Shown piece by piece: positions 6,854-40,769 of a stretch of 64,000 nucleotides of DNA. The notes beneath the pieces are model-generated. The model was not told the DNA's origin. It was given only the letters and a program-made list of their open reading frames with translations, and did not search any database. Every line of letters starts with the position of its first letter. Positions within the stretch are counted from its first letter, which is position 1. A program made the translations under genes and the position numbers. The stretch spans positions 1,277,309 to 1,341,308 of the forward strand of contig NZ_JACHZR010000001.1 of assembly GCF_014193695.1 (NCBI RefSeq), written 5' to 3'. The stretch comes from Rhizobium sp. BK316. GTDB taxonomy: Bacteria > Pseudomonadota > Alphaproteobacteria > Rhizobiales > Rhizobiaceae.

Positions 6854-8068
6854 ATGACCGAAGTCACCGAACTCAGCAGGCCTGAGGGTGAAGCGCTCAA
6901 GACCAGGGAAGTGCTTCTCAACCTCGGTCCGCAGCACCCCAGCACCCATGGGGTTCTTCGGCTCGTCCTCGAACTGGACGGCGAGTTCGTCGAGCGCGTC
7001 GATCCGCATATCGGCTACCTCCATCGCGGCACCGAAAAACTGGCGGAGAGCTTCACCTATACCCAGATTTTCCCGCTGACGGACCGGCTCGACTATCTCT
7101 GTCCGCCCTCTAACAACCTCGCCTTCGCGCTGGCGGTGGAGAAACTCCTCGGCATAGAAGCGCCGATCCGGGCGCAATATATCCGCGTGATGATGGCCGA
7201 GCTGGCACGGATCTCCGGTCACCTCCTGATCACGGGCGCGCTGCCGATGGATCTCGGCGCCATGACCGCATTGCTTTACGTCATGCGCGAGCGCGAAATG
7301 ATCATGGACCTCCTGGAAATGATCACCGGTGCGCGCATGCACACGTCCTTCTGCCGGGTCGGCGGGGTGCGCGAGGACCTGCCTGACGGGTTCTTCCCCA
7401 AGATCCGGGAATTCTGCGACATCTTCCCGAACCGGATCCGCGACTATGAGCGACTGCTCGAAGATAACCGGGTGTTTCTCAATCGCACGAAGGGGATCGG
7501 CGTGATCTCCGCCGAGGATGCTGTCGATCTCGGCCTCAGCGGCCCGAACCTGCGTGCTTCCGGTGTCGACTGGGACATCCGCCGCGATGAGCCCTACGAG
7601 ATCTACGACCGGCTCGATTTCAACGTCATTACCCGTAACGAAGGCGATTGCTACGCACGCTGGCGATGCCGCGTCGACGAAATGCGCGAAAGCATGGGGA
7701 TCATCGAACAATGCATCGACCAGATGCCCGAGGGGCCGTTCCAGATCGACATGCCGACAATCGCCTTCCCGCTGGACAAGGATCGGGTGCATTGCTCGAT
7801 GGAGGCGCTGATCCAGCATTTCGACCTGTCGGCCTACGGCTTCAAGGTGCCGAAGGGCGAGGTCTATTCGGCGATCGAGGCGCCAAAGGGCGAGCTTGGC
7901 TTCTACATCATCAGCGACGGGTCGCCAAAACCATTCCGCATGAAGGTGCGGGCACCCTCGTTCGTCAATCTTCAGGCCCTCTTCGGGGTCACCAACGCCC
8001 GCTATCTGGCGGACATGATCGCCGTGCTCGGCAGCCTCGACCCTGTGATGGCGGAGGTGGACAAGTAG
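6854..8068 (+). CDS. nuoD: NADH-quinone oxidoreductase subunit D
   Basis: A 404-residue 49-kDa-type subunit, evolutionarily the [NiFe]-hydrogenase large subunit, which with NuoB forms the quinone cavity. Family landmarks include 'NLGPQHPSTHGVLRLVLELDGE', 'HIGYLHRGTEKL' and 'ERLLEDNRVFLNRTKGIGV'. The hydrogenase cysteines are absent, as expected. ATG 6854 (MTEVTEL) is preferred over the in-frame ATG 6770, which would overlap nuoC by about 55 bp and add an atypical arginine-rich extension. Confidence 0.96.
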   Translation: MTEVTELSRPEGEALKTREVLLNLGPQHPSTHGVLRLVLELDGEFVERVDPHIGYLHRGTEKLAESFTYTQIFPLTDRLDYLCPPSNNLAFALAVEKLLGIEAPIRAQYIRVMMAELARISGHLLITGALPMDLGAMTALLYVMREREMIMDLLEMITGARMHTSFCRVGGVREDLPDGFFPKIREFCDIFPNRIRDYERLLEDNRVFLNRTKGIGVISAEDAVDLGLSGPNLRASGVDWDIRRDEPYEIYDRLDFNVITRNEGDCYARWRCRVDEMRESMGIIEQCIDQMPEGPFQIDMPTIAFPLDKDRVHCSMEALIQHFDLSAYGFKVPKGEVYSAIEAPKGELGFYIISDGSPKPFRMKVRAPSFVNLQALFGVTNARYLADMIAVLGSLDPVMAEVDK

Positions 8069-8084
8069 CAAGGATTTGAATGCG

Positions 8085-8594
8085 ATGACCATGCGCGAAA
8101 AGATCGAAGAGGCGGCGGCGCGCTATCCCGACCAGCGCTCTGCGATCATGCCCGCGCTCCTGATCGCGCAGGAAGAACATGGCCATCTGCCTGGGCCAGT
8201 GCTGGAAGAGGTCGCCGACATTCTCGGAGTCGAGCGGATCTGGGTCTACGAGTTGGCGACTTTCTACACCCTCTTCCACACCGAGCCGGTGGGGATGTTC
8301 CACCTGCAGCTCTGTGACAATGTTTCCTGCATGCTGTGCGGATCAGAGGAACTGCTAAACCATCTGGAAACGGTGCTGGGGATCAGGAAAGGCGGCACCA
8401 CCCCGGACGGGCTGTTTACGCTTTCGACCGTCGAATGCCTCGGCGCCTGCGAGATGGCTCCGGTGATGCAAGTCGGCGACGATTACCACGGCGACCTTGA
8501 TGTGGCGCGGATAAACGCACTGTTGGACAGCCTGCGGGCGACAGCGGGAGCGGCGAGCGCCGAGCACGCCTCTGCGCGGCTGCCGGGGGAGTAG
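8085..8594 (+). CDS. nuoE: NADH-quinone oxidoreductase subunit E
   Basis: A 169-residue thioredoxin-like [2Fe-2S] subunit (24-kDa type, cluster N1a) of the NADH dehydrogenase module. Ligands are seen as C-x4-C in 'LCDNVSCML' and C-x3-C in 'VECLGACEMAPV'. ATG 8085 follows an AAGGA about 10 bp upstream; a TTG at 8076 is a less likely start. nuoF begins 4 bp after the stop, so E, F and G are coupled. Confidence 0.95.
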   Translation: MTMREKIEEAAARYPDQRSAIMPALLIAQEEHGHLPGPVLEEVADILGVERIWVYELATFYTLFHTEPVGMFHLQLCDNVSCMLCGSEELLNHLETVLGIRKGGTTPDGLFTLSTVECLGACEMAPVMQVGDDYHGDLDVARINALLDSLRATAGAASAEHASARLPGE

Positions 8595-8598
8595 CGCC

Positions 8599-9903
8599 AT
8601 GTTCGAGCCGGTTCTTCTCAAAAATATCGATGTGGCGGACGGTCATTTGGTGTCGACCTACGAGGCCGGCGGCGGCTACAAGGCGTTGGCGAAGGCGCTG
8701 CGCGAGTACACGCCTGACGAGGTTATCGACCTCGTCAAACGGTCCAACCTGCGCGGTCGCGGCGGTGCCGGATTCCCAACGGGCATGAAATGGGGTTTCG
8801 TGCCGAAGCGCACCGGCAAGCCGACATATCTGTGCTGCAACGCCGATGAGGGCGAGCCGGGCACGTTCAAGGACCGGATCGTCATGGAGCGCGACCCGCA
8901 TCAACTGATCGAGGGGCTGGCGGTCAGTGCCTATGCGATTGGGGCCGAAACCGCCTATGTCTACATTCGCGGAGAATATGTGACGGCGATCCGTCGTCTG
9001 CAGCAGGCGATCGCCGAGGCCCACGCAAAGGGCTATCTCGGAAAGCGCATTCTGGGCTCGGATTTCAATTTCGCGGTACACATCCACTGCGGCGCCGGCG
9101 CCTATATCTGCGGCGAGGAGACTGCAATGCTCGAGTCGCTCGAGGGCAAGCGGGCGCAGCCGCGATTGAAGCCGCCATTTCCGGCCGTGGCCGGGCTCTA
9201 TGCCAGCCCAACAGTGATCAACAATGTCGAGACGCTCGCTTGCGTGCCGCATATCATTATGCGGGGGGCGGACTGGTTTCGGGGCATCGGCCCGGACAAG
9301 AGCCCCGGCCCGAAGCTCTACTGCCTCAGCGGGCAGGTGCGCAAACCCGGCCTCTACGAGTTGCCGATGGGCATAGCGCTGCGCGAACTGGTCGAGAACC
9401 ACGCCGGCGGCCCGCTGCCGGGACGCAGAATCAAGGCGGTGATCCCGGGCGGGGTCTCAGCGCCGGTCATACCGGAGCACGGGCTGGAGGTGAGGATGGA
9501 TTTCGACTCGCTAGCTGCCGCCGGCTCGATGCTCGGTTCGGCTGGCGTCATCGTGATCGACGACTCGACCTGCATGGTCAAGGTTGCGACCCGGATCATC
9601 GAATTCTTCCATCATGAGTCCTGCGGCAAGTGCACGCCATGCCGGGAAGGATTGAACTGGGTCGTAAAGGTCCTGCGCCGGATTGAGGCCGGGGAAGGTG
9701 CTGCCGGCGATCTGGAGCAGCTCGAGATGCTCTGCAAAGGCATTTTCGGCAATACGTTTTGTGCCTTGGGCGACGGCGCGGCGATGGGATTGCGGGCCGC
9801 ACTCGCGCATTTCCGCGATGAATTCGTCGCCCATATCGAGGAGCAAAGGTGCCCGTTCACGGAGGGAGCGCGCTGGGACGGGGCTGCGAGGAACTATGGT
9901 TAG
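8599..9903 (+). CDS. nuoF: NADH-quinone oxidoreductase subunit F (NADH-binding)
   Basis: A 434-residue 51-kDa-type subunit that binds NADH, FMN and cluster N3. The glycine-rich NADH site 'GRGGAGFPTGMKW', the FMN-associated 'GAGAYICGEETAMLESLEG' and the [4Fe-4S] motif 'ESCGKCTPCREG' with a later cysteine (GNTFC) are all present, so the protein should be a functional NADH oxidase module. The gene overlaps nuoG by 8 bp. Confidence 0.97.
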   Translation: MFEPVLLKNIDVADGHLVSTYEAGGGYKALAKALREYTPDEVIDLVKRSNLRGRGGAGFPTGMKWGFVPKRTGKPTYLCCNADEGEPGTFKDRIVMERDPHQLIEGLAVSAYAIGAETAYVYIRGEYVTAIRRLQQAIAEAHAKGYLGKRILGSDFNFAVHIHCGAGAYICGEETAMLESLEGKRAQPRLKPPFPAVAGLYASPTVINNVETLACVPHIIMRGADWFRGIGPDKSPGPKLYCLSGQVRKPGLYELPMGIALRELVENHAGGPLPGRRIKAVIPGGVSAPVIPEHGLEVRMDFDSLAAAGSMLGSAGVIVIDDSTCMVKVATRIIEFFHHESCGKCTPCREGLNWVVKVLRRIEAGEGAAGDLEQLEMLCKGIFGNTFCALGDGAAMGLRAALAHFRDEFVAHIEEQRCPFTEGARWDGAARNYG

Positions 9904-12475
9904 CATTACGATCGATGGACAAACGCTGGAAGTTGAGGCTGGCTCGACAGTGCTGCAGGCCGCCCGGCGTTTGGGCATCGATATCCCGACCTTCTGCTAT
10001 CTGAAGCGTCTGCCGGCGCTGGCCTCCTGCCGCATGTGCCTGGTGGAGATCGAGGGGCAGCGGCGGCTGCAGCCGTCCTGCGCCACCGCCGTCACCGAGG
10101 GAATGGTGGTGCGGGCGAATACAGCTCTGATCGAGGAAACGCGCTCTTCCATGCTCGATATGCTGCTCGCCAACCACCCCCTCGACTGTCCGATCTGCGA
10201 CAAGGGCGGTGAATGCGAGCTTCAGAACATGGTGATGGCCTATGGCCCCCGCGAGAGCCGATTCCGCGATGACAAGCGTGTGTTCCACTCCGAGGACATC
10301 CGTCTGAGTCCGGTCATCATCATGAACGTCAACCGCTGCATCCAGTGCCAGCGCTGCGTCCGGATGTGTGAGGAGGTCGTCGGCGCGGTCGCCCTGGGTA
10401 CCATCGAAAAAGGCATGGATACCGCCGTTACCGGCTTCGAGGGCAGTCTCGCGAGTTGTGATCAGTGCGGCAATTGCGTCGAGGTCTGCCCGGTCGGCGC
10501 GCTGATGAGCTTCCCCTATCGCTACAAGGCACGGCCCTGGGATCTCACCGAGACCGACACGGTCTGCCCGCATTGTGGCACCGGTTGCCAGCTGACGGTG
10601 GGCACACGCAAGGGCGAGTTCATGCGGGTGCGCTCGAAGTGGGACGAGGGGCTCAACCGCGAAACGCTCTGCGTTCGGGGACGCTTCGGCCTCGATTTCG
10701 TCGCGAGCCGGGACCGGATCAAGCGGCCGATGATCCGTCGTGATGGCGCCCTGGTTCCGGTTTCCTGGGATGAGGCTGGGGACTATCTGCGCCGGCGGCT
10801 ATCGGCGGTCGAGGGCAAGGCTGCCGGAGGGCTCGCCTCGCCTCGCCTCCCCAACGAGATGCTCTATCAGTTTCAGAAGCTGATGCGGACGGCATTCTAT
10901 ACCAACAACATTGATTGCTCGTCACGCTGGTCTACGCCCTTCGATACGCTCGGCCCGCTGCTGGCAGCCTTCAACAGCCGCGCACCGCTGGACGACGTGA
11001 TCGGCAACGACTGCGTGCTTGTCGTCGGCGGCAACGTCACCGAGGAGAACCCGGTCACCGAATACCTGCTGCGGGATGGCGTGCGGCGGCGGGAGACCAG
11101 ATTGCTCATGCTCTCGGCGCGGCCGTCCCGTCTGGATGCCGATGCCAGGATGGTGGTTCGCGTGCTGCCGGGCGGAGAAGCGGCGAGCCTTGCGGCGGTG
11201 GTGGCCGGTCTCGCAGCGGCAGTTGGTCCGGCTTTGCCTGCCGACGTTCTCGCGGGCATCGGCGCGACAATTGGCAAACCGGTGGCGGAAACCGGCATTG
11301 ACGGGCCGGGTCGTCTGGCAGCCGTGCTCAAGGAAGGCCGCAGCGTCACCGTGCTTGTCAGCGTCGACCTCCTGAGATCACCCGAAGCGCGCGCGACGCT
11401 GCAGCAGATCAATAACCTGCTGCAGGTTCTGCGCCTGCTCGGCAAGGGCCTGGCGATGCAGTTCCTCTTCGACCGTGCCAACCAGATGGGCGCCTGGGAC
11501 ATGGGAGTTCTGCCGGCGGCTCTGCCGGGGCTGCGGGCGGTCACCGACGATGTGGCGCGCACAACTCTTGCGCGGAACTGGGGCGCCGAAATCCCGTCTG
11601 AACCCGGCGCGGATCTCGATGCCATTCTGGAGCTCTGCGTCGGCGGACGGATGGGCGCTCTCTACGTCGTCGGAGCCGACCCCCTGATCGCCTATCCCGA
11701 CAGGGATTTCGTGAGGCGGGCGCTTGGCGCCGCCGATCTCCTGATCGTGCAGGACGCCTTCCTCACGGATACGGCGGGCCTTGCCGAGGTCGTCCTACCC
11801 ACGGCAGGTTACGGCGAGGAAACCGGCACGTTCACCAACAACGAGGGCCGGACCCAGACGGTCCGCAAATTCCGCGAACCCGCCTTCGAGGCGCGGAGCA
11901 ACCTGGCGATCTTCGATTTCGTCGCGGCGCTTCGCAACCAGGCACTGCGCCCGTCGACGCAAGGCGAAATTTTTGACGAGATCGCACGGCTGGTTCCAGC
12001 CTATCAGGGATTGACGCAGCACGCGCTTGGTGCCGACGGCGTATTCACCAAGGCAGTGCCCACGCCACCGGCGGCCAAGTTCTTTGCGCCGCCGCCCGTC
12101 CCGGCAGCAGCCGACCGGCTCATGCTGATCACCGGCGACTGCCTGTTCCACAACGGATATCTTTCCGAACGGTCGGACACCCTGAACACGGTCGCCAATG
12201 ATCCCTATGTCGCGATGAGCGCGCAGGATACCGCAGAGCTTGGCCTTTCGGATGGCGATCAGGTCATTGTGCGTTCCGCCCAGGGAGAACTGACGGCGCA
12301 GCTCAAGGTCGATAGGCGGTTTCCCAAGGGTCTCGTCTTCGTTCCGGAAAACTATAGAGCCTTGCGTCTCAACGGCCTGATGCGGCGGGGCGAATACCCA
12401 TGCCCGGTGGAGGTTCAGAAGGTGCATGCCACTCTTGAGGTCGACCGCCCGAGCAGGATCTGGCGTGGGGTTTGA
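9896..12475 (+). CDS. nuoG: NADH-quinone oxidoreductase subunit G, molybdopterin-fold type
   Basis: An 859-residue iron-sulfur subunit. Visible ligands: [2Fe-2S] C34/C45/C48/C62; His-ligated cluster H94/C98/C101/C107; two ferredoxin-type sets C148/C151/C154/C158 and C188/C191/C194/C198; and a further cluster C224/C227/C231/C259 in the layout of formate dehydrogenases. The rest is a molybdopterin-oxidoreductase fold ending in an 'ALRLNGLMRRGEYP' dinucleotide-binding-type domain. At the position of the formate dehydrogenase Sec/Cys ('NNVDCCARVU') the sequence reads 'NNIDCSSRWS', giving S346, so formate oxidation is unlikely. ATG 9896 overlaps the nuoF stop; the frame upstream is a shadow of nuoF. 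Confidence 0.93.
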   Translation: MVSITIDGQTLEVEAGSTVLQAARRLGIDIPTFCYLKRLPALASCRMCLVEIEGQRRLQPSCATAVTEGMVVRANTALIEETRSSMLDMLLANHPLDCPICDKGGECELQNMVMAYGPRESRFRDDKRVFHSEDIRLSPVIIMNVNRCIQCQRCVRMCEEVVGAVALGTIEKGMDTAVTGFEGSLASCDQCGNCVEVCPVGALMSFPYRYKARPWDLTETDTVCPHCGTGCQLTVGTRKGEFMRVRSKWDEGLNRETLCVRGRFGLDFVASRDRIKRPMIRRDGALVPVSWDEAGDYLRRRLSAVEGKAAGGLASPRLPNEMLYQFQKLMRTAFYTNNIDCSSRWSTPFDTLGPLLAAFNSRAPLDDVIGNDCVLVVGGNVTEENPVTEYLLRDGVRRRETRLLMLSARPSRLDADARMVVRVLPGGEAASLAAVVAGLAAAVGPALPADVLAGIGATIGKPVAETGIDGPGRLAAVLKEGRSVTVLVSVDLLRSPEARATLQQINNLLQVLRLLGKGLAMQFLFDRANQMGAWDMGVLPAALPGLRAVTDDVARTTLARNWGAEIPSEPGADLDAILELCVGGRMGALYVVGADPLIAYPDRDFVRRALGAADLLIVQDAFLTDTAGLAEVVLPTAGYGEETGTFTNNEGRTQTVRKFREPAFEARSNLAIFDFVAALRNQALRPSTQGEIFDEIARLVPAYQGLTQHALGADGVFTKAVPTPPAAKFFAPPPVPAAADRLMLITGDCLFHNGYLSERSDTLNTVANDPYVAMSAQDTAELGLSDGDQVIVRSAQGELTAQLKVDRRFPKGLVFVPENYRALRLNGLMRRGEYPCPVEVQKVHATLEVDRPSRIWRGV

Positions 12476-23971: not shown

Positions 23972-24892
23972 TCACTCCCGCCACAAGACCTTGACCGCCA
24001 GCGTGGCGGCCGAAGTACGCTTTTCCACGGCGAGCTTGTTGAAGATCTGCTCCATGTGCTTGTTCACCGTCCGGGGCGACATGTCGAGAATGTCGGCGAT
24101 CTCCTTGTTCGACTTGCCGTGTGCGACCCAGAGCAACACCTCGGCCTCGCGCAGCGTCAGGCCGAAGGCCTTGACGAGCTGTTCCTCGTCGGTGCCACGG
24201 TGACGGTCGACGAGCCTGAGCAGGATTTCCCCATCCTGGCTATGCGACAACAGGCGGAACTCAACATCCTGGGAATGACGCGAGTAGCGCAATGCCTGCG
24301 GCAATGGCGGTCCGTCCTGGGATTTCGGTTCACTCAGCCAACCGGCCACCTCCCACGGCAAATAGGCACCGGCATCGGGCCGCACCCCGACCCGCAGGAG
24401 CAATTCGCTGGCTTGTGGCGTCGACCAGCCGATGCGGCCGTTGCCGTCGCAGGCGACGATCCAGCGTCCGGTGGAATCGAGCGCGTTGCGGGCTGACCGG
24501 GCGCGCCTGGCATTGCCGAGATGCACCCGCATCCGGGCGAAGAGCTGGTCGAGCAGGATCGGCTTGCTGACGAAATCGACGCCCCCCGATGCAAGCGCCT
24601 TCACCACATGTTCACTTTCGTTGTATCCGGTCATGAAGATGATCGGCAGGTCCTCGAACCCCCGCGCGGCCTTGAGGATCTGGCAGGTCTCGAACCCGTC
24701 CATGCCCGGCATGATCGCATCCATCAGGACAATATCGGGGACTGTCGTGTTAGCAAGCGTGATCGCCTGCCTGCCGCTGCTGGAGACCACCACGTCCATG
24801 CCCTCGAGGCTCAGAGCGTCGGAGAGCATGGCGAGCGCTTCGGGGGAGTCGTCGACGATCAGGACTTTGCTGCAATCGGACGTCTCAGGCAT
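23972..24892 (-). CDS. LuxR-type response regulator with PAS-like middle domain
   Basis: This 306-residue regulator has a receiver domain (about residues 8-125, phospho-acceptor D58 in 'DIVLMDAIMPGMDG', lysine in 'VSKPILL'), a middle region (about 135-232) of PAS-like character ('GRWIVACDGNGRIGWSTPQASELL') and a C-terminal LuxR helix-turn-helix ('LTLREAEVLLWVAHGKSNKEIADILDMSPRTVNKHMEQIFNKL'). Its start overlaps the end of the permease-fused kinase by 8 bp, so the two are a cognate pair. The likely target is the divergent amide/urea operon. The PAS-like insertion is unusual, since most LuxR regulators go straight from receiver to helix-turn-helix. Confidence 0.92.
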   Translation of the reverse strand: MPETSDCSKVLIVDDSPEALAMLSDALSLEGMDVVVSSSGRQAITLANTTVPDIVLMDAIMPGMDGFETCQILKAARGFEDLPIIFMTGYNESEHVVKALASGGVDFVSKPILLDQLFARMRVHLGNARRARSARNALDSTGRWIVACDGNGRIGWSTPQASELLLRVGVRPDAGAYLPWEVAGWLSEPKSQDGPPLPQALRYSRHSQDVEFRLLSHSQDGEILLRLVDRHRGTDEEQLVKAFGLTLREAEVLLWVAHGKSNKEIADILDMSPRTVNKHMEQIFNKLAVEKRTSAATLAVKVLWRE

Positions 24893-27800
24893 TGTTCTTG
24901 GTCTCCTCGATTACGGCGAGGAAATCGCGCAGGCGATAACTCGTGGCCAGATGACGCATGTGTCTACAAAACCGCACGGTTTCCGGCGCGGAAACTTCGA
25001 GATCGTTCAGCATGGCCTCGATCGAGCGGACAAAACCCGTCTGGCCGAGGGTGCGCAACTGGCGCAGCTTCTGCCTGTCCGGTAATTCCGCATCCAGGAA
25101 GCGCGGCGGCACCTCGACCTCCTCCGGCCGACCGTCGTCATAGGTCCAGCTCAATGGAACGAGCGCTGCCAGTCGTTCGAAGAGTTCCTCGAAGCCGAAG
25201 GGCTTGATCAGGTAGGAATCGTAAAGGTCCGTGTACTCGGGCCTGGTTCGCTCGGTGCCGGCATCGGCGGACAGGATGAGGATCGGCAGGTCGCGGCCGA
25301 GACGCTGCCGAATCCGCCGGGCCACCTCCCAGCCGGACATCGTAGGCATAGCAACATCGAGGATGACGATGTCGGGGCGATGAAGCGCCAATTGCGACAG
25401 GCAGGCAGGTCCATCAGTCACGGTGATGACCGAGAAGCCCATCGGCACCAGGACGTCCTCCATCAGCGCCCGCTGGACCGGATCATCGTCGGCGATCAGC
25501 ACCGTCCGGCGCGGACCTTCATACCCGATGATGGCAAGTGCCAGTCCCGCCATGTCGTCCGGCTTGGCCGCCGAAGACAGCATGAGCCGGATGGTAAAAT
25601 GTGTGCCCCTCCCGGGCGTGCTTTTCAGGGTAAGCTCGCCGCCCATAATCTCCACCAGCAATTTGGTGATGGTCAGGCCAAGGCCGGTGCCGGGCGGACT
25701 GATGTGTCCGACCGCAACCTCGGCACGCTCGAAAGGGAGAAATATTCGCTCGATATCGCTCGCCTTTATCCCGACGCCGGTATCCTGGACCTCGAAGGTC
25801 GCCACCTGCCCGCGATAGGACAGGCTGAAGCAAACTCTGCCGGCATGGGTAAACTTGATGGCGTTGGAGAGCAGGTTGATAAGCACCTGGCGCAGCCGCT
25901 TCTCGTCGGTGTAGACATAGTCGGGCATGGTCGAGGTCGAGCGAAATTCGAAGCTGATGCCCTTGGCCTGCGCCTGGAGGCTGAACATGTCCACGATCTG
26001 ATCGAGGAAGGGGCCGAGCGCGATCTTGTGGCGGTAGATCTCCAGCTTTCCAGCCTCGATCTTGGAAATGTCGAGCAGCCCCTCAATCATGTCGGCCAGA
26101 TGCTCGCCGCTTCGCTTGATGGTACGCGCGGCATTGTGGACATAGCCGGGCATGCTCTTCTGCCGCTCCAGCAACTGGGCATAGCCGAGAATGGCGCTTA
26201 GCGGCGTGCGCAGCTCGTGGCTGAGGCCCACCACATACTTGCTCTTTGCGACGTTGGCGGACTCGGCCGCCTCCTTGGCCTTCTGCAGCAGCCTGTCGGT
26301 CTCCTCGTGCGCCTTGATCTCGTCCATGAGCAGGCGCGTGTGACGGCGCGATTCCTCCTCGGCGAATTTCCGGCTTTCCTGGGCCAGCACGAAAAGCCAG
26401 ACAATGATGCCGGAGATGATGAAGACGATGATGAACAGTTTCCACAACACCGCCGAGATCGGCCCGGCCGGCAGTGACCGGTCGATTGTACTCTGGAAAT
26501 AGATCAGCCAGAATAGCACTCCGATCAGTAGCGTGACCATCGTCAGGATGGCGGCATAGCGCATCAGCCGGCCCTCCACCCAAACCGCAAAACGGGCCGG
26601 CAGCAGAGCGGCGGCGGCGCTGCGTGCCTGGTCCATGAGCCGGGCATCGGTCTTGCAGAGATCACCGCAACGGGCATCGAGCGAGCAGCAAAGCGAGCAG
26701 ATCGGCCCGGAATAGACCGGGCAGCCGGCCATGTCCTCGCGGTCGAAGCTGTGCTCGCAGATACAGCACTGGATCATCGGCTGATTGGCCCAGTCAGCCT
26801 TGGTTTCCCGGGCTATATAGTAGCGACCGCGCGTGGCGGCCGCGATCAGCGGTGCCAACACGAAGGCCGAGGCAAGCGCCACGTAGATGTAGGCCTGAGC
26901 CAGGAAAGTGCCGAAGAAACCGAGATAGGCGAGAAGGCCGGCGAGATCGGCGATGCACATGGCACCGAAGCCTGCCGGATTGATGTCGTAGAGGTGGGCG
27001 CGCTTGAACTCGATGGCGGCCGGCGACAGGCCCATCGGCTTGCTGACCACGAGATCGGCGACGATCGCCGCCATCCAGGACACGGCGACGATGGCGTAGA
27101 GGCCAAGCGTCTGTTCGAGTGCCTTGTAGACGCCGAATTCCATCAGCAGCAGGCCGAGCAGCACGTTGAACACCAGCCACACGACGCGGCCCGGATGGCT
27201 GTGGGTCAGGCGCGAGAAGAAGTTGGACCAGGCGATCGAACCGGCATAGCTGTTGGTGATGTTGATCTTGACCTGGCAGACGACGACGAAGATGCCGGTC
27301 AGCCCCAGGGCCAGTTCAGGCGAGACCAGCATCTCGCGAAAGACGCTCAGATACATCTGGGTAGGGTCGGCGGCATCGGCGAAGCCGACCCCGTGCTGAA
27401 AGGCGTAGAAGGCCAGGAACGATCCCGCGAGAATTTTCAGCCCGCCGATCAGGATCCAGCCGGGGCCGGCGAACATCAGCGCCGCCCACCAACGCAGCCG
27501 GTTCTTTCGGTCCTCGCGCGGCAGGAAACGCAGGAAATCGACCTGTTCCCCGATCTGCGCGACCAGCGAGAACAGGACCGCAGAGGCCGCGCCGAAATGG
27601 GCGAGATCGACAGAGCCATCCGGCTGGCCCCACAGGCCGGTATAGCCAGTCCACTGGCGCACCGAGACGTGGCTTTGCGCGGCGATGAAGATGAAGGGTG
27701 CGAGCTGGAGCACGATCCAGAAGGGCTGGCTCCACGCCTGAAAACGGCTGATGAAGGTCACTCCGTGCGTCACCAGCGGGATGATCAGCAGTGCGCTGGC

Positions 27801-28262
27801 GATATAGCCGATCGACAGCGGCAGGCCGGTGCAGAGCTCCAGCGCGGTCGCCACGATCGCCGCCTCGATGGCGAAGAAGATGAAGGTGAAGGTGGCATAG
27901 ATCAGCGAAGTGACCGTCGACCCGATATAGCCGAAGCCTGCGCCGCGGGTGAGAAGATCGATGTCCACGCCGAACTTGGCGGCATTGTAGGCAATCGGTA
28001 TCCCCATCAGGAAGATAATCGTGCAACTGACGAGGATTGCCGCGACCGCGTTGGGGAAGCCATAGTTGAGCGTAATAGATCCGCCGATCGCCTCCAGCGC
28101 CAAGAAGGAAATTGCGCCGATCGCTGTGTTGGCGATGCGGCCGTTGGAGAAACGACGCACGCGATAGGCGGTGAAGCGCAGCGCATAGTCTTCCAGGGTC
28201 TGGTTGGCGACCCATTTATTGTAAGTCCGGCGATTTCTCGGGATCCTCTCCGCTGTGGTCAC
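24885..28262 (-). CDS. Hybrid histidine kinase with NCS1 permease sensor domain
   Basis: This 1125-residue fusion has, in order: an NCS1 (cytosine/purine/allantoin) permease-like domain of about a dozen helices (residues ~1-480); a cysteine-rich linker with C499, C500, C502, C514, C522, C525, C526, C532 and C536, probably metal binding; two more helices (~566-625); a coiled-coil; HisKA with phospho-acceptor H682 ('GLSHELRTPL'); HATPase with N, G1 'DTGVGI' and G2 'GTGLGL' boxes; a receiver with D969 ('DIVILDVAMP'); and a helical tail. It would act as a membrane transceptor sensing a nitrogenous solute. It is divergent from the urea/short-chain-amide ABC operon and overlaps its response regulator. 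Analogous in plan to CbrA, which uses an SSS-family transporter. Confidence 0.93.
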   Translation of the reverse strand: MTTAERIPRNRRTYNKWVANQTLEDYALRFTAYRVRRFSNGRIANTAIGAISFLALEAIGGSITLNYGFPNAVAAILVSCTIIFLMGIPIAYNAAKFGVDIDLLTRGAGFGYIGSTVTSLIYATFTFIFFAIEAAIVATALELCTGLPLSIGYIASALLIIPLVTHGVTFISRFQAWSQPFWIVLQLAPFIFIAAQSHVSVRQWTGYTGLWGQPDGSVDLAHFGAASAVLFSLVAQIGEQVDFLRFLPREDRKNRLRWWAALMFAGPGWILIGGLKILAGSFLAFYAFQHGVGFADAADPTQMYLSVFREMLVSPELALGLTGIFVVVCQVKINITNSYAGSIAWSNFFSRLTHSHPGRVVWLVFNVLLGLLLMEFGVYKALEQTLGLYAIVAVSWMAAIVADLVVSKPMGLSPAAIEFKRAHLYDINPAGFGAMCIADLAGLLAYLGFFGTFLAQAYIYVALASAFVLAPLIAAATRGRYYIARETKADWANQPMIQCCICEHSFDREDMAGCPVYSGPICSLCCSLDARCGDLCKTDARLMDQARSAAAALLPARFAVWVEGRLMRYAAILTMVTLLIGVLFWLIYFQSTIDRSLPAGPISAVLWKLFIIVFIISGIIVWLFVLAQESRKFAEEESRRHTRLLMDEIKAHEETDRLLQKAKEAAESANVAKSKYVVGLSHELRTPLSAILGYAQLLERQKSMPGYVHNAARTIKRSGEHLADMIEGLLDISKIEAGKLEIYRHKIALGPFLDQIVDMFSLQAQAKGISFEFRSTSTMPDYVYTDEKRLRQVLINLLSNAIKFTHAGRVCFSLSYRGQVATFEVQDTGVGIKASDIERIFLPFERAEVAVGHISPPGTGLGLTITKLLVEIMGGELTLKSTPGRGTHFTIRLMLSSAAKPDDMAGLALAIIGYEGPRRTVLIADDDPVQRALMEDVLVPMGFSVITVTDGPACLSQLALHRPDIVILDVAMPTMSGWEVARRIRQRLGRDLPILILSADAGTERTRPEYTDLYDSYLIKPFGFEELFERLAALVPLSWTYDDGRPEEVEVPPRFLDAELPDRQKLRQLRTLGQTGFVRSIEAMLNDLEVSAPETVRFCRHMRHLATSYRLRDFLAVIEETKNNA

Positions 28263-28608
28263 GACAGGTCACTCCGCGGGGTTGCAGGCCCGTCCGCCGT
28301 ATGAGGCGCGTCCCGAATTCGCTGCAACTGCAAAGCAAGAAACGTTCCAGCCACGTCGCCGCGCAGCGAAAGTGGCCGAAACCATTTGCCGCCGACCGTC
28401 ATTTCGGGATTCGGACCGTCCTCTTTTTTCAATAAATTCAATCCTCCGATGTCTTCAAACCGTCATTTGGCCCGATGCTAGGGGGAAAATGGGCAAGGAC
28501 AAATACGTCAAACGCTCCATTGTTGCGTTGCAGCACCGCCGCAACACTCGCGTCAGTTGGCCGGATCGAGCCAGCACCTTCCGAACACAAGCGAAATGAG
28601 GCTCTGCC
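28263..28608. promoter_or_regulatory. Divergent control region between kinase and amide operon
   Basis: A 346-bp spacer with no gene that must hold promoters for both directions. It contains a 10-bp direct repeat, accgtcattt, at 28,395-28,404 and 28,459-28,468 (64 bp apart), and a short gttgc/gcaac inverted repeat around 28,520-28,545. These are candidate sites for the adjacent LuxR-type regulator. No sigma-54 -24/-12 element was convincing by eye. Confidence 0.6.
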
Positions 28609-29871
28609 ATGAAGGACGAACCATCGAAAAGACTGATGCCCGTGACCCGCAGGACGCTGCTGGCCGGCATTGCCGCAATGCCTTTCCTCACCACGGGCGT
28701 CGTGCCGGTTGTGGCCGCCGACTATCCGACCGCCGCCGTCAACACGACGGGGCTCGCCGTCACCGACGATACCGTCAAGGTCGGCATCCTGCATTCCGTC
28801 ACCGGCACGATGGCGATCAGCGAGACCGGTTCGGTCCAGGCGGAGAAGCTGGCAATCGAGCAGATTAACGCCATGGGCGGCGTGCTCGGCCGCAAGATCG
28901 AATTCATTCAGGAAGATGGCGCTTCCGATTGGCCGACCTTCGCCGAAAAGGCCAAGAAACTGCTTGTTCAGGACAAGACGGCGGCCGTCTTCGGTTGCTG
29001 GACGTCCGCCTCGCGCAAGGCCGTGCTGCCGGTCTTCGAACAGTATAACGGCATGCTCTATTACCCGACCTTCTACGAAGGCCTCGAGGAGAGCCCGAAC
29101 GTGATCTACACCGGCCAGGAGGCGACCCAGCAGATTCTCGCCGGTATCGACTGGGTGGTGAAGGAAAAGGGCGCCAAGTCCTTCTACCTGCTCGGTTCCG
29201 ACTATATCTGGCCGCGCACCTCCAACAAGATCGCCCGCAAACATATCGAGAAGCTCGGCCTCGAGGTCGTCGGCGAGGAATATTATCCGCTCGGTCACAC
29301 CCAGTTCAATTCGGTGATCAACAAGATCAAACTGAAGAAGCCGGACGTGATCTATGCGATCGTGGTCGGCGGCTCGAACGTCGCCTTCTACAAGCAGCTG
29401 AAGGCCGCGGGCATCGACCTGTCCAAGGAAAAGCCGCTTCTCCTGACGATTTCAGTGACCGAGGACGAAATCCTCGGCATCGGCGGCGAGAACATGGCCG
29501 GTGCCTACGCGATGATGAAGTATTTCCAGAGCCTGGAGAACGACAACAACAAGCAGTTCGTCGCCGAGTTCAAGAAGATGTGGGGCGACAATATCGTCAT
29601 TGGCGACGTCACCCAGGCGGCCTATCTCGGCCCTTGGCTGTGGAAGGCCGCCGTCGAGAAGGCTGGTTCCTTCGATATCGACAAGGTCAAGGCCGCGTCG
29701 CCGGGCATCGAACTGACCACGGCGCCGGAAGGCTACGTCAAGATCCACGAGAACCATCACCTCTGGTCGAAAGCGCGCGTGGGCCATGCCCAGCTCGATG
29801 GCCAGTACAAGGTGGTCTACGAGACGACCGGCCTGATGGAACCGAACCCCTTCCCCGAAGGCTATCAATAA
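28609..29871 (+). CDS. urtA: Urea/short-chain amide ABC transporter binding protein
   Basis: A 420-residue periplasmic solute-binding protein with an export signal containing a twin arginine (VTRRTLLAG, residues 12-20) and cleavage near 'VAADYP'. The mature part belongs to the AmiC/UrtA/FmdD group: '[17 protein letters not shown]', '[30 protein letters not shown]'. It could equally be named fmdD, because formamidase lies in the same operon. It heads a seven-gene run (urtA-B-C-D-E, fmdA, fmdB), and the divergent permease-kinase suggests substrate-responsive control. Confidence 0.93.
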   Translation: [420 protein letters not shown]

Positions 29872-29952: not shown

Positions 29953-30879
29953 ATGATTGGCGACTATACCTTTGGCGAGTTCACTTCGATTTTGGCCATG
30001 CAGGGCTTCGCAGGCCTCAGCCTGTTTTCCGTCTTCGTGCTGATGGCGCTGGGTCTTGCGATCATCTTCGGCCAGATGGGCGTCATCAACATGGCCCATG
30101 GCGAATTCATGATCCTTGGTGCCTATGTGACTTATCTCTGCTCCCATCTGGTGACCGAATATGTGCCGGTGTTGTTTCCGGTCTATTTCTTCGCGGCCAT
30201 GGCGCTCGCCTTCTGCACTTCCTTCGGGCTCGGCGTGCTTGTCGAGTGGGGCTTGATCCGGCATCTCTATCGTCGGCCGCTCGATACCTTACTTGCCACC
30301 TGGGGCCTGTCGCTGATCCTGCAGCAGGTCTACCGCTCGGTCTTCGGCGCCCGCGAAGTGGGCGTCACCCTGCCGGACTGGATGATGGGCTCGGTCGCGC
30401 TGACCGACATGATCGAGATCCCGATCAACGGCCTGTTCGTCATGGGTCTGACCATCCTGATCGCCTTCGCCGTCTATCTGATGATGGCGCGCTCCACCTT
30501 CGGCAAGCAGGTGCGTGCCGTGCTGCAGAACCGGGTGATGGCCGGCGCCGTCGGCATCGACACCAAGCGCGTCGACCGTATGACTTTCGGGCTCGGCTGC
30601 GGCATCGCCGGGATCGCCGGTTCCGCCTTCACCATGATCGGCTCGACCGGGCCGACCGCCGGCCAGCTCTATATCGTCGACACCTTCCTGGTGGTCGTCT
30701 TCGGCGGCGCCGGCAGCCTGATCGGCACGATCGCCTCCGCCTTCACCATCTCCCAGGCCCAGTCGACGATGGAATTCTTCATGAGCGGCTCCATGGCCAA
30801 GGTACTCACGCTGCTCACCGTCGTCGGCATCCTGATGCTGCGCCCGCAAGGCCTGTTCACGCTCAATATCCGCCGCTGA
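29953..30879 (+). CDS. urtB: Urea/amide ABC transporter permease B
   Basis: A 308-residue LivH-type inner-membrane permease with about eight helices. Recognised by 'LGLAIIFGQMGVINMAHGEFMILGAYVTY', the loop 'DTLLATWGLSLILQQVYRSVFGAREVGV' and 'GRLV-like' C-terminal helices ending 'LRPQGLFTLNIRR'. It is the short UrtB form without the long periplasmic N-terminal domain seen in some cyanobacterial proteins. It lies 81 bp after urtA and 13 bp before urtC. Confidence 0.93.
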   Translation: MIGDYTFGEFTSILAMQGFAGLSLFSVFVLMALGLAIIFGQMGVINMAHGEFMILGAYVTYLCSHLVTEYVPVLFPVYFFAAMALAFCTSFGLGVLVEWGLIRHLYRRPLDTLLATWGLSLILQQVYRSVFGAREVGVTLPDWMMGSVALTDMIEIPINGLFVMGLTILIAFAVYLMMARSTFGKQVRAVLQNRVMAGAVGIDTKRVDRMTFGLGCGIAGIAGSAFTMIGSTGPTAGQLYIVDTFLVVVFGGAGSLIGTIASAFTISQAQSTMEFFMSGSMAKVLTLLTVVGILMLRPQGLFTLNIRR

Positions 30880-30892
30880 GGAGTACCGAACC

Positions 30893-32026
30893 ATGACCTC
30901 CGAGACTTTTCTGTTCAAGCAACGCGAATGGGTGGCGCTCGCCGTCCTGGCCGCCCTGATCCTCCTCGTCCTGCCCGCCACCGTCGATGTCTTCCGGCTC
31001 AACCTGGTCGGCAAATACCTGACTTATGCCTTCGTCGCGCTCGGCCTCGTGCTCTGCTGGGGCCTTGGCGGTATCCTGAGCCTCGGCCAGGGCATCTTCT
31101 TCGGCCTCGGCGGCTACTGCATGGCGATGTTCCTGAAGCTGGAGGCCTCGACCCCGGAGGCGACGAAGATCCAGTCGACGCCTGGCATTCCTGATTTTAT
31201 GGACTGGAACCAGGTGACCGAACTGCCCTTCTGGTGGCAGCCGTTCCATTCCTTCGGCTTCACGCTGATCGCAATCGTCGCGGTACCGACCGTGTTTGCC
31301 TATGTCATTGGTGCCGCGATGTTCAAGCGGCGGGTCGGCGGCGTCTATTTCGCCATCATCACCCAGGCGGTGGCCGCGATCCTCACCATCCTGATCATCG
31401 GTCAGCAAGGCTATACCGGCGGCGTAAACGGCATCACCGACCTGCGCACGCTGCTTGGCTGGGATATCCGCACTGACGAAGCCAAATTCGTGCTGTATTT
31501 CGTCAATGCGTTGCTGTTGATCGGCTGCCTGGTTCTCGCCCAGTTCGTCCGGGTATCGAAATTCGGTCGGTTGCTGGTTGCGATGCGCGATCGCGAGGAC
31601 CGCGTGCGCTTCTCCGGCTATGACGTGTCGAACTTCAAGATCTTCGTCTTCTGCCTGGCGGCCGCCTTTTCCGCCATCGGCGGGGCGATGTTCACCCTGC
31701 AGGTGGGCTTCATGTCACCCTCCTTCGTCGGGATCGTGCCGTCGATCGAAATGGTGATCTTCTGCGCGGTCGGCGGTCGCCTGTCGTTGTTCGGCGCGGT
31801 CTACGGCGCGCTGCTCGTCAACTTCGCCAAGACCTCGTTTTCCGAGAGTTTCCCCGAACTCTGGCTGTTTGCCATGGGCGGGCTGTTCATCGCCGTGGTC
31901 ATGACCTTCCCCTTCGGCCTTGCCGGGGTCATCCGCGAGCATGTCGAGCCGGCGCTGTTGAAATTCACCCGGCGCGTGGCGCTGCTGCGCCCCGGCGCCG
32001 CGGCTGCGTCATCCTCCTCGAAGTGA
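30893..32026 (+). CDS. urtC: Urea/amide ABC transporter permease C
   Basis: A 377-residue LivM-type permease. The first half shows 'ALGLVLCWGLGGILSLGQGIFFGLGGYCMAMFLKLE' and the second 'AMRDREDRVRFSGYDVSNFKIFVFCLAAAFSAIGGAMFTLQVGFMSP', both typical of UrtC. The periplasmic insertion around residues 85-115 ('PGIPDFMDWNQVTELPFWWQPF') is characteristic of the urea/amide branch. It pairs with UrtB to form the translocation channel. Confidence 0.93.
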   Translation: MTSETFLFKQREWVALAVLAALILLVLPATVDVFRLNLVGKYLTYAFVALGLVLCWGLGGILSLGQGIFFGLGGYCMAMFLKLEASTPEATKIQSTPGIPDFMDWNQVTELPFWWQPFHSFGFTLIAIVAVPTVFAYVIGAAMFKRRVGGVYFAIITQAVAAILTILIIGQQGYTGGVNGITDLRTLLGWDIRTDEAKFVLYFVNALLLIGCLVLAQFVRVSKFGRLLVAMRDREDRVRFSGYDVSNFKIFVFCLAAAFSAIGGAMFTLQVGFMSPSFVGIVPSIEMVIFCAVGGRLSLFGAVYGALLVNFAKTSFSESFPELWLFAMGGLFIAVVMTFPFGLAGVIREHVEPALLKFTRRVALLRPGAAAASSSSK

Positions 32027-32038
32027 AAGGCCAAGGCG

Positions 32039-32791
32039 ATGGACCCGAACGCACCTGCCGACTTCCTCCTGAGTGTCGAAAGCCTCACGGTTTCCTTCGA
32101 TGGCTTCAAGGCGGTCAACGACCTTTCCTTCTATGTCGATGAGAATGAGATCCGCGTGATCATCGGTCCGAACGGCGCCGGCAAGACCACCGTGCTCGAT
32201 CTAATCTGCGGCCGCACCAGACCGACCGAGGGCTCGATCCGCTTCAGGGGCCAGGAACTGACCGGCATGCGGGAGCACGAGATTGTGCATGCGGGCATCG
32301 GCCGCAAATTCCAGAACCCGTCGATCTACGAGGACCTGACGGTGTTCGAGAACCTCGAACTCTCCTTCCCGCGCGGCCGCAACGTGTTCGGCGCGCTGTT
32401 CTTCCGCCGCGACGCCGAGGTGCGCGACCGGGTTGAGGAGATCGCCAAGATGATCTTCCTTAAGGACCACCTGAGCACCGAGGCGGCGATCCTCAGTCAC
32501 GGGCAGAAGCAATGGCTGGAGATCGGCATGCTTCTGATCCAGAGCCCCAAGCTCTTGATGCTGGACGAGCCGGTTGCCGGCATGAGCATCGCCGAGCGCA
32601 GGAAGACCGCGGAACTCCTGAACACTATCATCCGCAACCAGTCCGTGATCGTCATCGAGCACGACATGAAATTCGTCGAGGACATCGCCCACCGGGTCAC
32701 GGTGCTGCACCAGGGACGGGTGCTCTCCGAGGGGTCGATGGAGCGCGTCAAGAACGACCCGAAGGTCGTTGAAGTCTACCTCGGCCATTAG
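32039..32791 (+). CDS. urtD: Urea/amide ABC transporter ATPase D
   Basis: A 250-residue LivG-type ABC ATPase with Walker A 'GPNGAGKTT', Walker B 'LLMLDEPVAGM' and the modified signature 'LSHGQKQWLEIG', which is diagnostic of UrtD rather than ordinary LivG (LSxGxQ). The switch histidine is in 'VIEHDMKFV'. It lies 12 bp after urtC and 9 bp before urtE. Confidence 0.94.
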   Translation: MDPNAPADFLLSVESLTVSFDGFKAVNDLSFYVDENEIRVIIGPNGAGKTTVLDLICGRTRPTEGSIRFRGQELTGMREHEIVHAGIGRKFQNPSIYEDLTVFENLELSFPRGRNVFGALFFRRDAEVRDRVEEIAKMIFLKDHLSTEAAILSHGQKQWLEIGMLLIQSPKLLMLDEPVAGMSIAERRKTAELLNTIIRNQSVIVIEHDMKFVEDIAHRVTVLHQGRVLSEGSMERVKNDPKVVEVYLGH

Positions 32792-32800
32792 GAGGATGCC

Positions 32801-33490
32801 ATGCTCACAGTCGAAAACCTTCACGTCGCCTATGGCCAGAGCGAGGTCATCCATGGCCTCGACCTCACCGTCGCGGCTGGCGAAATCGTCGCCATCATGG
32901 GCCGCAACGGCATGGGCAAAACCACGCTGATGAAGTCGCTGATCGGCATCGTGCCGTCCAGCCGAGGCATGATCCGCATCGCCGACCGGTCAATCGAGAC
33001 GCTCGAAAGCTACCAGCGCGTCGGCGCGGGCCTCGCCTATGTGCCGCAGGGCCGCATGATCTTCTCGGCCATGACCGTCAGGGAGAATATCGAGACCGGT
33101 CTCACCGTGACGGGTGAAACCACCGTGCCGGACCAAATCTACGAATTGTTTCCGGTGCTGCTGGAAATGAAGGGGCGGCGCGGCGGCAATCTCTCCGGCG
33201 GCCAGCAGCAGCAGCTGGCGATCGCCCGGGCGCTCGCCTCTCGGCCGAAAGTGCTGATCCTCGACGAACCGACGGAAGGCATCCAGCCGTCGATCATCAA
33301 GGAGATGGGGCGCACACTCCGCCGTATCCGCGACGAGATGGGCCTTTCGATCCTTGTTTCCGAACAGGTGCTGAGCTTCGCCCTCGACATGGCCGACCGG
33401 GTGCTCGTCATCGAAAAGGGCCAGATCGTCCACGAGTCCCCGCGCGCCGGCATCGACGAGGAGAAGGTCTCCGCCTTCCTCTCCGTCTGA
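32801..33490 (+). CDS. urtE: Urea/amide ABC transporter ATPase E
   Basis: A 229-residue LivF-type ABC ATPase with Walker A 'GRNGMGKTT', signature 'LSGGQQQQLAIARAL' and Walker B 'LILDEPTEGIQPSII', which is the UrtE form. It completes the five-component transporter. A 42-bp spacer with an AGGAGA ribosome binding site leads to formamidase. Confidence 0.94.
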   Translation: MLTVENLHVAYGQSEVIHGLDLTVAAGEIVAIMGRNGMGKTTLMKSLIGIVPSSRGMIRIADRSIETLESYQRVGAGLAYVPQGRMIFSAMTVRENIETGLTVTGETTVPDQIYELFPVLLEMKGRRGGNLSGGQQQQLAIARALASRPKVLILDEPTEGIQPSIIKEMGRTLRRIRDEMGLSILVSEQVLSFALDMADRVLVIEKGQIVHESPRAGIDEEKVSAFLSV

Positions 33491-33532: not shown

Positions 33533-34765
33533 ATGCCCGATACCCTCATCAAGGTGGACCTAAGCGAGTCCGCCTACAGCAACGAGAAGATACACAACCG
33601 CTGGCACCCCGACATTCCAATGGCCTGCTGGGTCGAACCCGGCGACGACTTCCGGGTCGAGACCTATGACTGGACCGGCGGCCAGATCAAGAACGACGAC
33701 GATGCCTCCGACGTGCGCGACGTCGACCTCTCGCAGGTCCACTTCCTGTCCGGCCCGATCGGCGTGAAGGGTGCCGAGCCCGGCGACCTGCTGGTGGTCG
33801 ACATCCTCGACATCGGCGCCTTCGACAACAGCCTGTGGGGTTTCAACGGCTTCTTCTCCAAGAAGAACGGCGGCGGCTTCCTGACCGAGCATTTCCCGGA
33901 GGCGCAGAAGTCGATCTGGGACTTCCAGGGCATGTTCACCTCCTCGCGCCACGTGCCGGGCGTCAAATATGCGGGCCTCATCCATCCCGGCCTGATCGGC
34001 TGCCTGCCGGACCGCAAAATGCTAGACCTGTGGAACAACCGCGAAAAGGCGCTGTTCGACACCGATCCCGCCCGCATACCGGCGCTTGCCACCCTGCCGG
34101 ATGGCGGCCCGACCGCGCATATGGGCGCTCTCAAGGGCGAGGCCCGCGACAAGGCAGCCGCCGAGGGCGCCCGTACGGTCCCGCCGCGCGAGCATGGCGG
34201 CAATTGTGACATCAAGGACCTGTCGCGCGGCTCGAAGATCTATTTCCCGGTCTATGTCGACGGCGCCGGCCTTTCCATGGGCGACCTGCATTTCAGCCAG
34301 GGCGACGGCGAGATCACCTTCTGCGGCGCCATCGAGATGGCGGGCTGGCTGCATATCAAGGTGTCGCTGATCAAGGACGGCATGGCCAAATACGGGATCA
34401 AGAACCCGATCTTCCGACCCTCGCCGATCACGCCGAAATACGACGACTACCTGATCTTCGAGGGCATCTCGGTCGACGAGGGCGGCAAGCAGCATTATCT
34501 CGACGTGCATATCGCCTACCGCCAGGCCTGCCTCAACGCCATCGAATATATGACCAAGTTCGGCTACACCCGCGCCCAGGCCTATGCCATCCTCGGCACG
34601 GCGCCGATCCAGGGCCATATATCCGGCGTGGTCGACATTCCAAACGCCTGCGCGACGCTGTGGCTGCCGCTCGACATCTTCGAATTCGACATGAAGCCCG
34701 GCGCCGACGGTCCGAAGATATTCCTTGACGGCACGGCCGACGTGCCGCTCGCCCCCGATCTTTGA
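33533..34765 (+). CDS. fmdA: Formamidase (acetamidase/formamidase family)
   Basis: A 410-residue cytoplasmic enzyme expected to hydrolyse formamide to formate and ammonia; the family also includes acetamidases. Family blocks include 'FLSGPIGVKGAEPGDLLVVDILDIG', 'HPGLIGCLPDRKML', 'PPREHGGNCDIKDLSRGSKIYFPVYVDGAGLSMGDLHFSQGDGEI' and 'TKFGYTRAQAYAILGTAPIQGHISG'. Length is normal for the family. Its place after the urt/fmdDEF-type transporter makes amide uptake followed by hydrolysis the natural pathway and leaves ammonium as the nitrogen product. No urease genes are present in the window. Confidence 0.95.
   Translation: MPDTLIKVDLSESAYSNEKIHNRWHPDIPMACWVEPGDDFRVETYDWTGGQIKNDDDASDVRDVDLSQVHFLSGPIGVKGAEPGDLLVVDILDIGAFDNSLWGFNGFFSKKNGGGFLTEHFPEAQKSIWDFQGMFTSSRHVPGVKYAGLIHPGLIGCLPDRKMLDLWNNREKALFDTDPARIPALATLPDGGPTAHMGALKGEARDKAAAEGARTVPPREHGGNCDIKDLSRGSKIYFPVYVDGAGLSMGDLHFSQGDGEITFCGAIEMAGWLHIKVSLIKDGMAKYGIKNPIFRPSPITPKYDDYLIFEGISVDEGGKQHYLDVHIAYRQACLNAIEYMTKFGYTRAQAYAILGTAPIQGHISGVVDIPNACATLWLPLDIFEFDMKPGADGPKIFLDGTADVPLAPDL

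Positions 34766-37680: not shown

Positions 37681-40769
<3,089 letters not shown>

Follow-up and report, generated by a model that had tools for sequence, protein, structure and literature searches.

The 64,000-nucleotide stretch of Rhizobium sp. BK316 analysed here (the window; contig NZ_JACHZR010000001.1, positions 1,277,309 to 1,341,308) carries a hybrid sensor histidine kinase that begins with an entire NCS1-type permease domain, is followed by a LuxR-type response regulator, and stands divergently to an operon of urtABCDE and the formamidase gene fmdA (Table 1). A sequence-only reading of this locus had described one fused 1125-residue chain beside an amide/urea transporter and a formamidase, and both parts of that description hold: the kinase frame runs on the minus strand from a GTG without internal stops, the plus strand being interrupted by stops in the same frame, and urtA-E and fmdA each score above their own NCBIfam cut-off. 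The permease probably serves as a receptor with urea or a short amide (formamide, for instance) as its ligand, and through it the kinase and its LuxR-type regulator would switch on the operon for uptake and hydrolysis.

Table 1. Features of the kinase locus, with positions counted from the first nucleotide of the window.
Feature	Position	Strand	Basis
Response regulator, receiver and LuxR helix-turn-helix, 306 aa; start overlaps kinase stop	23972..24892	-	
Hybrid sensor histidine kinase, N-terminal NCS1-type permease, 1125 aa, GTG start	24885..28262	-	
C-terminal four-helix segment after receiver, residues 1063-1123	24894..25076	-	full-length model
Receiver domain (Response_reg), residues 921-1031	25170..25502	-	Pfam
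HATPase_c, residues 785-895	25578..25910	-	Pfam
HisKA, residues 674-738	26049..26243	-	Pfam
Extra transmembrane hairpin, residues 565-639	26346..26570	-	model
Cys-rich module, residues 499-537, eight invariant Cys, predicted metal site	26652..26768	-	
NCS1-type permease domain, about residues 15-485	26808..28220	-	structure and profile comparison
Predicted operator of the window's clade, 25 bp, ATACGTCAAACGCTCCATTGTTGCG	28503..28527	+	clade intergenic comparison
urtA-like solute-binding protein, amide type	28609..29871	+	NCBIfam
urtB-like permease	29953..30879	+	NCBIfam
urtC-like permease	30893..32026	+	NCBIfam
urtD-like ATPase	32039..32791	+	NCBIfam
urtE-like ATPase	32801..33490	+	NCBIfam
fmdA formamidase	33533..34765	+	NCBIfam

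The kinase core and receiver that had been proposed are confirmed by Pfam, and in an alignment of 53 rows including the window's, H682, N796, N800, D827 and the G-box glycines of the kinase as well as D925, D926, D969 and K1020 of the receiver are invariant. These include the catalytic residues, so that the protein has all that is expected of a hybrid histidine kinase. All three domains are present in 116 of the 120 homologues listed (62-99% identity over residues 1-640), the other four lacking one or two, and the long open frame is also kept in relatives from the class at 48-63% identity, one of which is a fragment. Because the domains and the long frames are kept across homologues, a chance reading frame can be ruled out. 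The four helices after the receiver have no convincing Pfam match, and an Hpt role is therefore not claimed for them.

That the sensor is a complete NCS1-type transporter is supported by structure, by profile-profile comparison and by a stand-alone relative that Pfam recognizes, but not by direct sequence matches. Residues 1-521 match nothing in Pfam at an E-value of 10, the NCS1 model PF02133 included, find no NCS1 model in NCBIfam at E 1 (a single unrelated chance match appeared at E 0.94), and find no NCS1 protein by sequence in the PDB at E 10. Profile-profile comparison with hhalign, however, gives kinship to NCS1 at E 2.6e-8, and the family model picks up a kinase-free, PF02133-positive permease (locus L193) at E 4.7e-46. 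In structure comparison the permease model has the complete NCS1 fold, in the NCS1 variant of the LeuT fold, and its best matches are NCS1 structures, CodB and Mhp1 being among the matches, with 13-18% identity to these two in the structural alignments. An identity as SLC5 permease was considered and rejected, as the NCS1 structures match better than solute:sodium symporters, the best of which, DUR3 (23.0) and CHT1 (22.9), lie about 10 Z units under CodB. The permease is called NCS1-type, of a divergent branch of the NCS1 (PF02133) permeases, because homology and fold are positive and the direct Pfam match is negative. Pfam finds no PF02133 protein in the window's genome.

As for the binding site, three MAFFT modes place W117, Q121, N314 and N318 of Mhp1 at F129, E133, N334 and N337, and S312/T313, which belong to the Na2 site, at K332/I333. 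The hydroxyls of this site on transmembrane helix 8 (TM8), a mark of NCS1 proteins, thus appear to be missing here. E133, K332, N334 and N337 are invariant in 156/156 family rows, and the predicted pocket consists of invariant E133, Q330, N334 and N337 together with F129, which stands where Mhp1 has its stacking Trp. In the excerpted text on Mhp1, W117, Q121 and N318 contact hydantoin (PMC4195764), and in that on CodB the two TM8 threonines T278/T279 coordinate Na+ (PMC9379551). Mhp1 and CodB are alike in fold to the sensor, with alignable TM3/TM8 pocket positions, and unlike it in the altered substrate and sodium residues and in having no fused kinase. Sodium-independent sensing, with K332 standing in for the ion, is a fair prediction because K332 aligns with the Na2 position, which K196 fills in CbrA, the SLC5-STAC histidine kinase of Pseudomonas; according to the excerpt of PMC13022988, K196 fills the Na2 site and histidine transport is reported to be independent of sodium. 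The lysine has been located by structure in CbrA and by alignment here.

The kinase-free relatives of the L193 family, stand-alone members of the "purine-cytosine permease family", have most of the pocket in common with the kinases (E133, Q236, D242, R245, Q330, N334 and N337 in 119-120 of the 120 rows listed) at 23-27% identity, and differ in having no kinase and an Arg in place of K332 (120/120 listed rows). The L193 permease itself (7948-9438, plus strand of its locus) lies on a sister branch and adjoins a carbon-nitrogen hydrolase and an UrtA-like binding protein; it is possibly a free-standing amide transporter.

Between the permease and the transmembrane hairpin lies a Cys-rich module, in which the nine cysteines counted earlier within residues 499-536 are indeed present, eight of them (499, 502, 514, 522, 525, 526, 532 and 536) being invariant in 156/156 rows and C500 varying. 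Residues 480-560 match no Pfam family at E 10, and the whole protein matches nothing besides kinase and receiver at 0.01; a STAC domain is likewise not recognized by Pfam in this region, with the limit that it was not checked whether Pfam has a STAC model. In the structure model, strands surround the Cys cluster, where CbrA has a four-helix bundle according to the excerpt of PMC13022988. From the Cys pattern it may be guessed that the module is metal-bound. The predicted extra helices are found at residues 565-593 and from 599 on, and the full-length model, read for local helix continuity alone (pTM score 0.50), has helix 599-700 leaving the membrane and entering the DHp domain without a break. 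Binding of urea or a short amide in the pocket would alter the pose of the permease, and the probably metal-bound module and the hairpin would relay this change to the long DHp helix, without a need for Na+ as K332 would sit in its place. The kinase would then hand its phosphate to the adjacent LuxR-type regulator, for which binding to a conserved site and activation of the adjoining operon for uptake and hydrolysis are predicted.

The gene neighbourhoods of homologues agree with such a function. The homologue search scored at least 8000 proteins, and the family occurs in 26/385 genomes drawn from the class and in 56/398 from the phylum (G608, G590 and G697 by weak partial matches, G649 by a fragment). 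Neighbours were sought by tblastn with the window's regulator, UrtA-E and FmdA and with UrtA-E, UreB, UreC and UreG of a second kinase island of the same genome, at 80 named, 26 class and 56 phylum loci; the named loci are the best-scoring 80 and biased to close relatives, the other sets come from evenly drawn genomes, and the phylum loci omit the already sampled G000, G042, G189, G283 and G361 and the G649 fragment. The label urea-type is used in this analysis where UrtA-E are 36-55% identical and a long UrtB, urease or both lie close by. Of the named loci, 66 are amide-type and 5 urea-type, and 9 have neither, of which L040, L095 and L104 are fully flanked and the others end at contig breaks; L039, L054 and L059 are cut by contig ends, yet have an amide-type UrtA. 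The class loci comprise 13 amide-type, 8 urea-type and 5 without (L126-L129 and one fragment). In the phylum set, L202 and L203 have no sensor match, and the 54 loci with one fall into 31 with amide-type genes and fmdA, 16 urea-type, 1 mixed, 2 with only fmdA and 4 without, these last being two kinase-free permeases and two cut contigs. The usual response regulator lies downstream at 78/80, 26/26 and 50/54 loci. The link to amides and urea that the sequence-only reading had drawn is hence corroborated, and the survey contradicts the idea that such fusions have no consistent nitrogen-transport neighbours. Co-occurrence points the same way: fmdA is found in 40/398 phylum genomes, and the kinase in 39/40 of these and in 17/358 others (Fisher p 2e-39, which on related genomes is not a count of independent events; a further count leaves out the weak matches G608, G590 and G697, and the genome set is assumed to be identical in the three 398-genome searches for kinase, fmdA and urea urtA). 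G536 is the sole fmdA genome without such a kinase. At the mixed locus, L224 (G759), a single kinase stands beside amide-type urt genes and urease. L203 encodes (8841-10709, plus strand) a Cys-rich start, hairpin, kinase and receiver with the permease missing, by eye the look of a truncated member.

The second kinase copy of the window's genome, on contig 3, is 54% identical and adjoins a urea-type urtABCDE with a long UrtB and then urease genes (ureC by Pfam; ureB, E, F and G by eye), where the genome's only urease alpha match is also found. Copy 1 is thus predicted to serve formamide/amide uptake with urtABCDE-fmdA, and copy 2 urea uptake with urease. Eight phylum genomes have two kinase matches, which in G000, G574, G638, G658 and G776 are one amide and one urea island, in G516 an amide island and a locus with only fmdA, in G607 a kinase and a kinase-free permease, and in G786 two pieces of a single gene. 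In a tree of the sensor region, which was built quickly and has a few weak branches, 6 changes account for the amide/urea labels of 139 rows; for the urea group 7 are needed, against a mean of 27.0 in shuffled labels, with 0/500 shuffles as low (L101 with one stop, the fragment L138, the kinase-free L193 and L201 and one duplicate are omitted).

A candidate operator is found in the kinase-urtA intergenic regions, reduced from 117 to 92 by removal of near-copies: a TACG-N8-CGTA palindrome (consensus ATACGTcANNTgACGTAT) is exact in 54/92 and present with at most one mismatch in 73/92, with a mean of 0.0 in five dinucleotide-shuffled sets. Of the 125 exact palindromes at 155 loci, 89 fall in the 700 bp upstream of the kinase, a density 69 times that elsewhere. 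The site stays with urtA where the urea operon is 2 to 10 kb off the kinase (L113, L197, L207, L209, L210, L240), and of the 34 exact palindromes in the window's genome, one, on contig 3 (181452), lies 96 bp ahead of the urea urtA. As a control, 90 genomes were used out of 127 that have a match to urea urtA; in these the exact site precedes the urea-type urtA in 14/17 with a urea-type kinase, 1/21 with only amide-type kinases and 0/52 without kinase (15/17, 2/21 and 5/52 if one mismatch is allowed); kinase and urtA are at least 40 kb apart in G457, G638, G776 and G786. In G260, G033, G162, G796 and G797, the sampled kinase has no urt neighbour and an amide-type urtA lies elsewhere in the genome, with an exact site 119-202 bp upstream in 5/5, vs 0/10 for other urtA-like genes of these five and two further such genomes (two with one mismatch; 10 of 15 such genes were tested, the remaining five including a tandem 73% copy in G796). 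A kinase-dependent operator at urt is thus indicated at the level of sequence, and in the window it does not take the canonical form.

Several observations weigh against this interpretation. The canonical palindrome has 0 full-form matches in the window's own intergenic region at up to 3 mismatches, and at up to one mismatch it is missing in 19/92 intergenics, 7 of the window's clade and 12 outside. The window's clade instead has the 25-bp block ATACGTCAAACGCTCCATTGTTGCG, identical at 21/25 positions in 7/7 intergenics (the window's and L028-L033), which includes the half-site ATACGTCA; the DNA-binding region of the regulator resembles that of other clades, and by eye, speculatively, the possible half-sites of the block are one helical turn wider apart than those of the palindrome. 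As the clade has this different block, regulation in the window is predicted only by analogy. G744 and G767 have a urea-type kinase and no site at urtA, and under a stricter definition the site lies ahead of the kinase at only 44/109 amide-type and 7/29 urea-type loci (anywhere in the locus, 51/109 and 13/29). Neither urt nor urease genes adjoin the kinase at the seven fully flanked loci L040, L095, L104 and L126-L129, and the fmdA-linked L188 and L189 have shorter frames (894 and 899 aa), no usual regulator and, with fmdA adjacent, no urt operon, L188 then having a different regulator-like reading frame. The mapping of residues onto Mhp1 was built on about 14-17% identity. Finally, the polar pocket is identical in amide- and urea-type kinases, and one ligand may suit both.

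This last point leads to the possibility, which we regard as tentative, that both kinase types sense urea and that the fmdA operon is urea-responsive with formamide incidental. It would agree with the window's amide-type UrtA-E exceeding the NCBIfam cut-offs for urea transporters, but the type of sensor tracks the type of operon in the tree, amide islands are usually partnered by formamidase and not by urease, and position 129 is F in 110/110 amide-type rows and L in two urea clades, with F231 differing in 4/6 urea clades. Positions like these were considered as determinants of specificity and dropped; the F129/F231 trend is suggestive only. No more probable is a true transceptor, as the sequence-only reading had suggested, in which the permease also transports its ligand and the kinase reports the flux. 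The complete NCS1 fold is in line with it, as is CbrA, for which, with a lysine in the Na2 site, proton-driven histidine transport is reported in the excerpt of PMC13022988, but a dedicated ABC transporter is encoded alongside, the Na2 hydroxyl positions are taken by K332 and I333, and Ks-Amt5, according to a section heading of PMC5764959, binds its ion without translocating it.

The same invariance of the eight cysteines that suggests a metal site could also mean that the permease is a membrane scaffold and the module reads metal or redox state; this is unlikely, as the polar pocket is equally invariant and the constant partners are urea and amide genes (no search was aimed at metal or redox genes). 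Slightly less probable still is a nucleobase, hydantoin or allantoin as ligand, with urea merely a downstream product: the fold matches CodB and Mhp1, but F129 and E133 stand where Mhp1 has W117 and Q121, and the usual partners are fmdA and urt (no search was aimed at purine-degradation neighbours). The more likely ligand is urea or a short amide. Extending the receptor reading to a class that is widespread in the Pseudomonadota and so far overlooked, in which NCS1 transporters became Na+-independent urea or short-amide receptors with a fixed lysine in place of sodium, an eight-Cys metal module, hybrid kinase and LuxR regulator, control urt-fmdA or urt-urease through TACG-N8-CGTA and switched repeatedly between amide and urea, would be right about as often as wrong.

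Among known systems, CbrA is alike in fusing a LeuT-fold transporter to a histidine kinase and in its Na2-site lysine, and differs, as far as the excerpt of PMC13022988 goes, in its SLC5 domain and probably in its STAC linker, where here an NCS1-type domain, an eight-Cys module and a hairpin are found, and in its ligand histidine, where urea or a short amide is proposed here. CbrA's transporter family had been called unrelated, which is not wholly correct: structures of the SLC5 type as well as NCS1 structures match the model, and they have the LeuT fold in common. Ks-Amt5 likewise uses a transporter of a nitrogen compound as sensory module of a kinase, but with the Amt fold and ammonium as ligand (excerpt of PMC5764959). 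By analogy, the present kinase would work as these fusions do, with a sensor that belongs to neither the SLC5 nor the Amt kind. The partners here, urea transporters of the UrtABCDE type and the formamidase FmdA, are known in their own right, and searches of the open-licence PubMed Central literature found no study linking them to such a kinase. This literature mentions or tabulates likely members, with no study of them found, which agrees with the earlier view of a little-described system: a Dechloromonas table has a 1131-aa histidine kinase, a CheY-like receiver and UrtA that would fit the family (excerpt of PMC2907700), a genome paper mentions a urtABCDE operon with LuxR two-component genes (excerpt of PMC13296017), and the excerpt of PMC11109136 does not name NCS1.

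To the SLC5 and Amt fusions an NCS1-type module is now added, tied to the scavenging of organic nitrogen, and predicted operator and regulon offer a testable answer to how urea and formamide could be sensed in many proteobacteria, with paired copies within one genome as natural controls of specificity. That a lysine is found at the sodium site in both of two separate lineages of transporter-kinase fusions hints that transporters may have become receptors by a shared route. Elsewhere in the window (37681-40769, minus strand), a chemoreceptor-like gene overlaps by 4 bases, as seen by eye, the preceding gene for a periplasmic sugar-binding-like protein.
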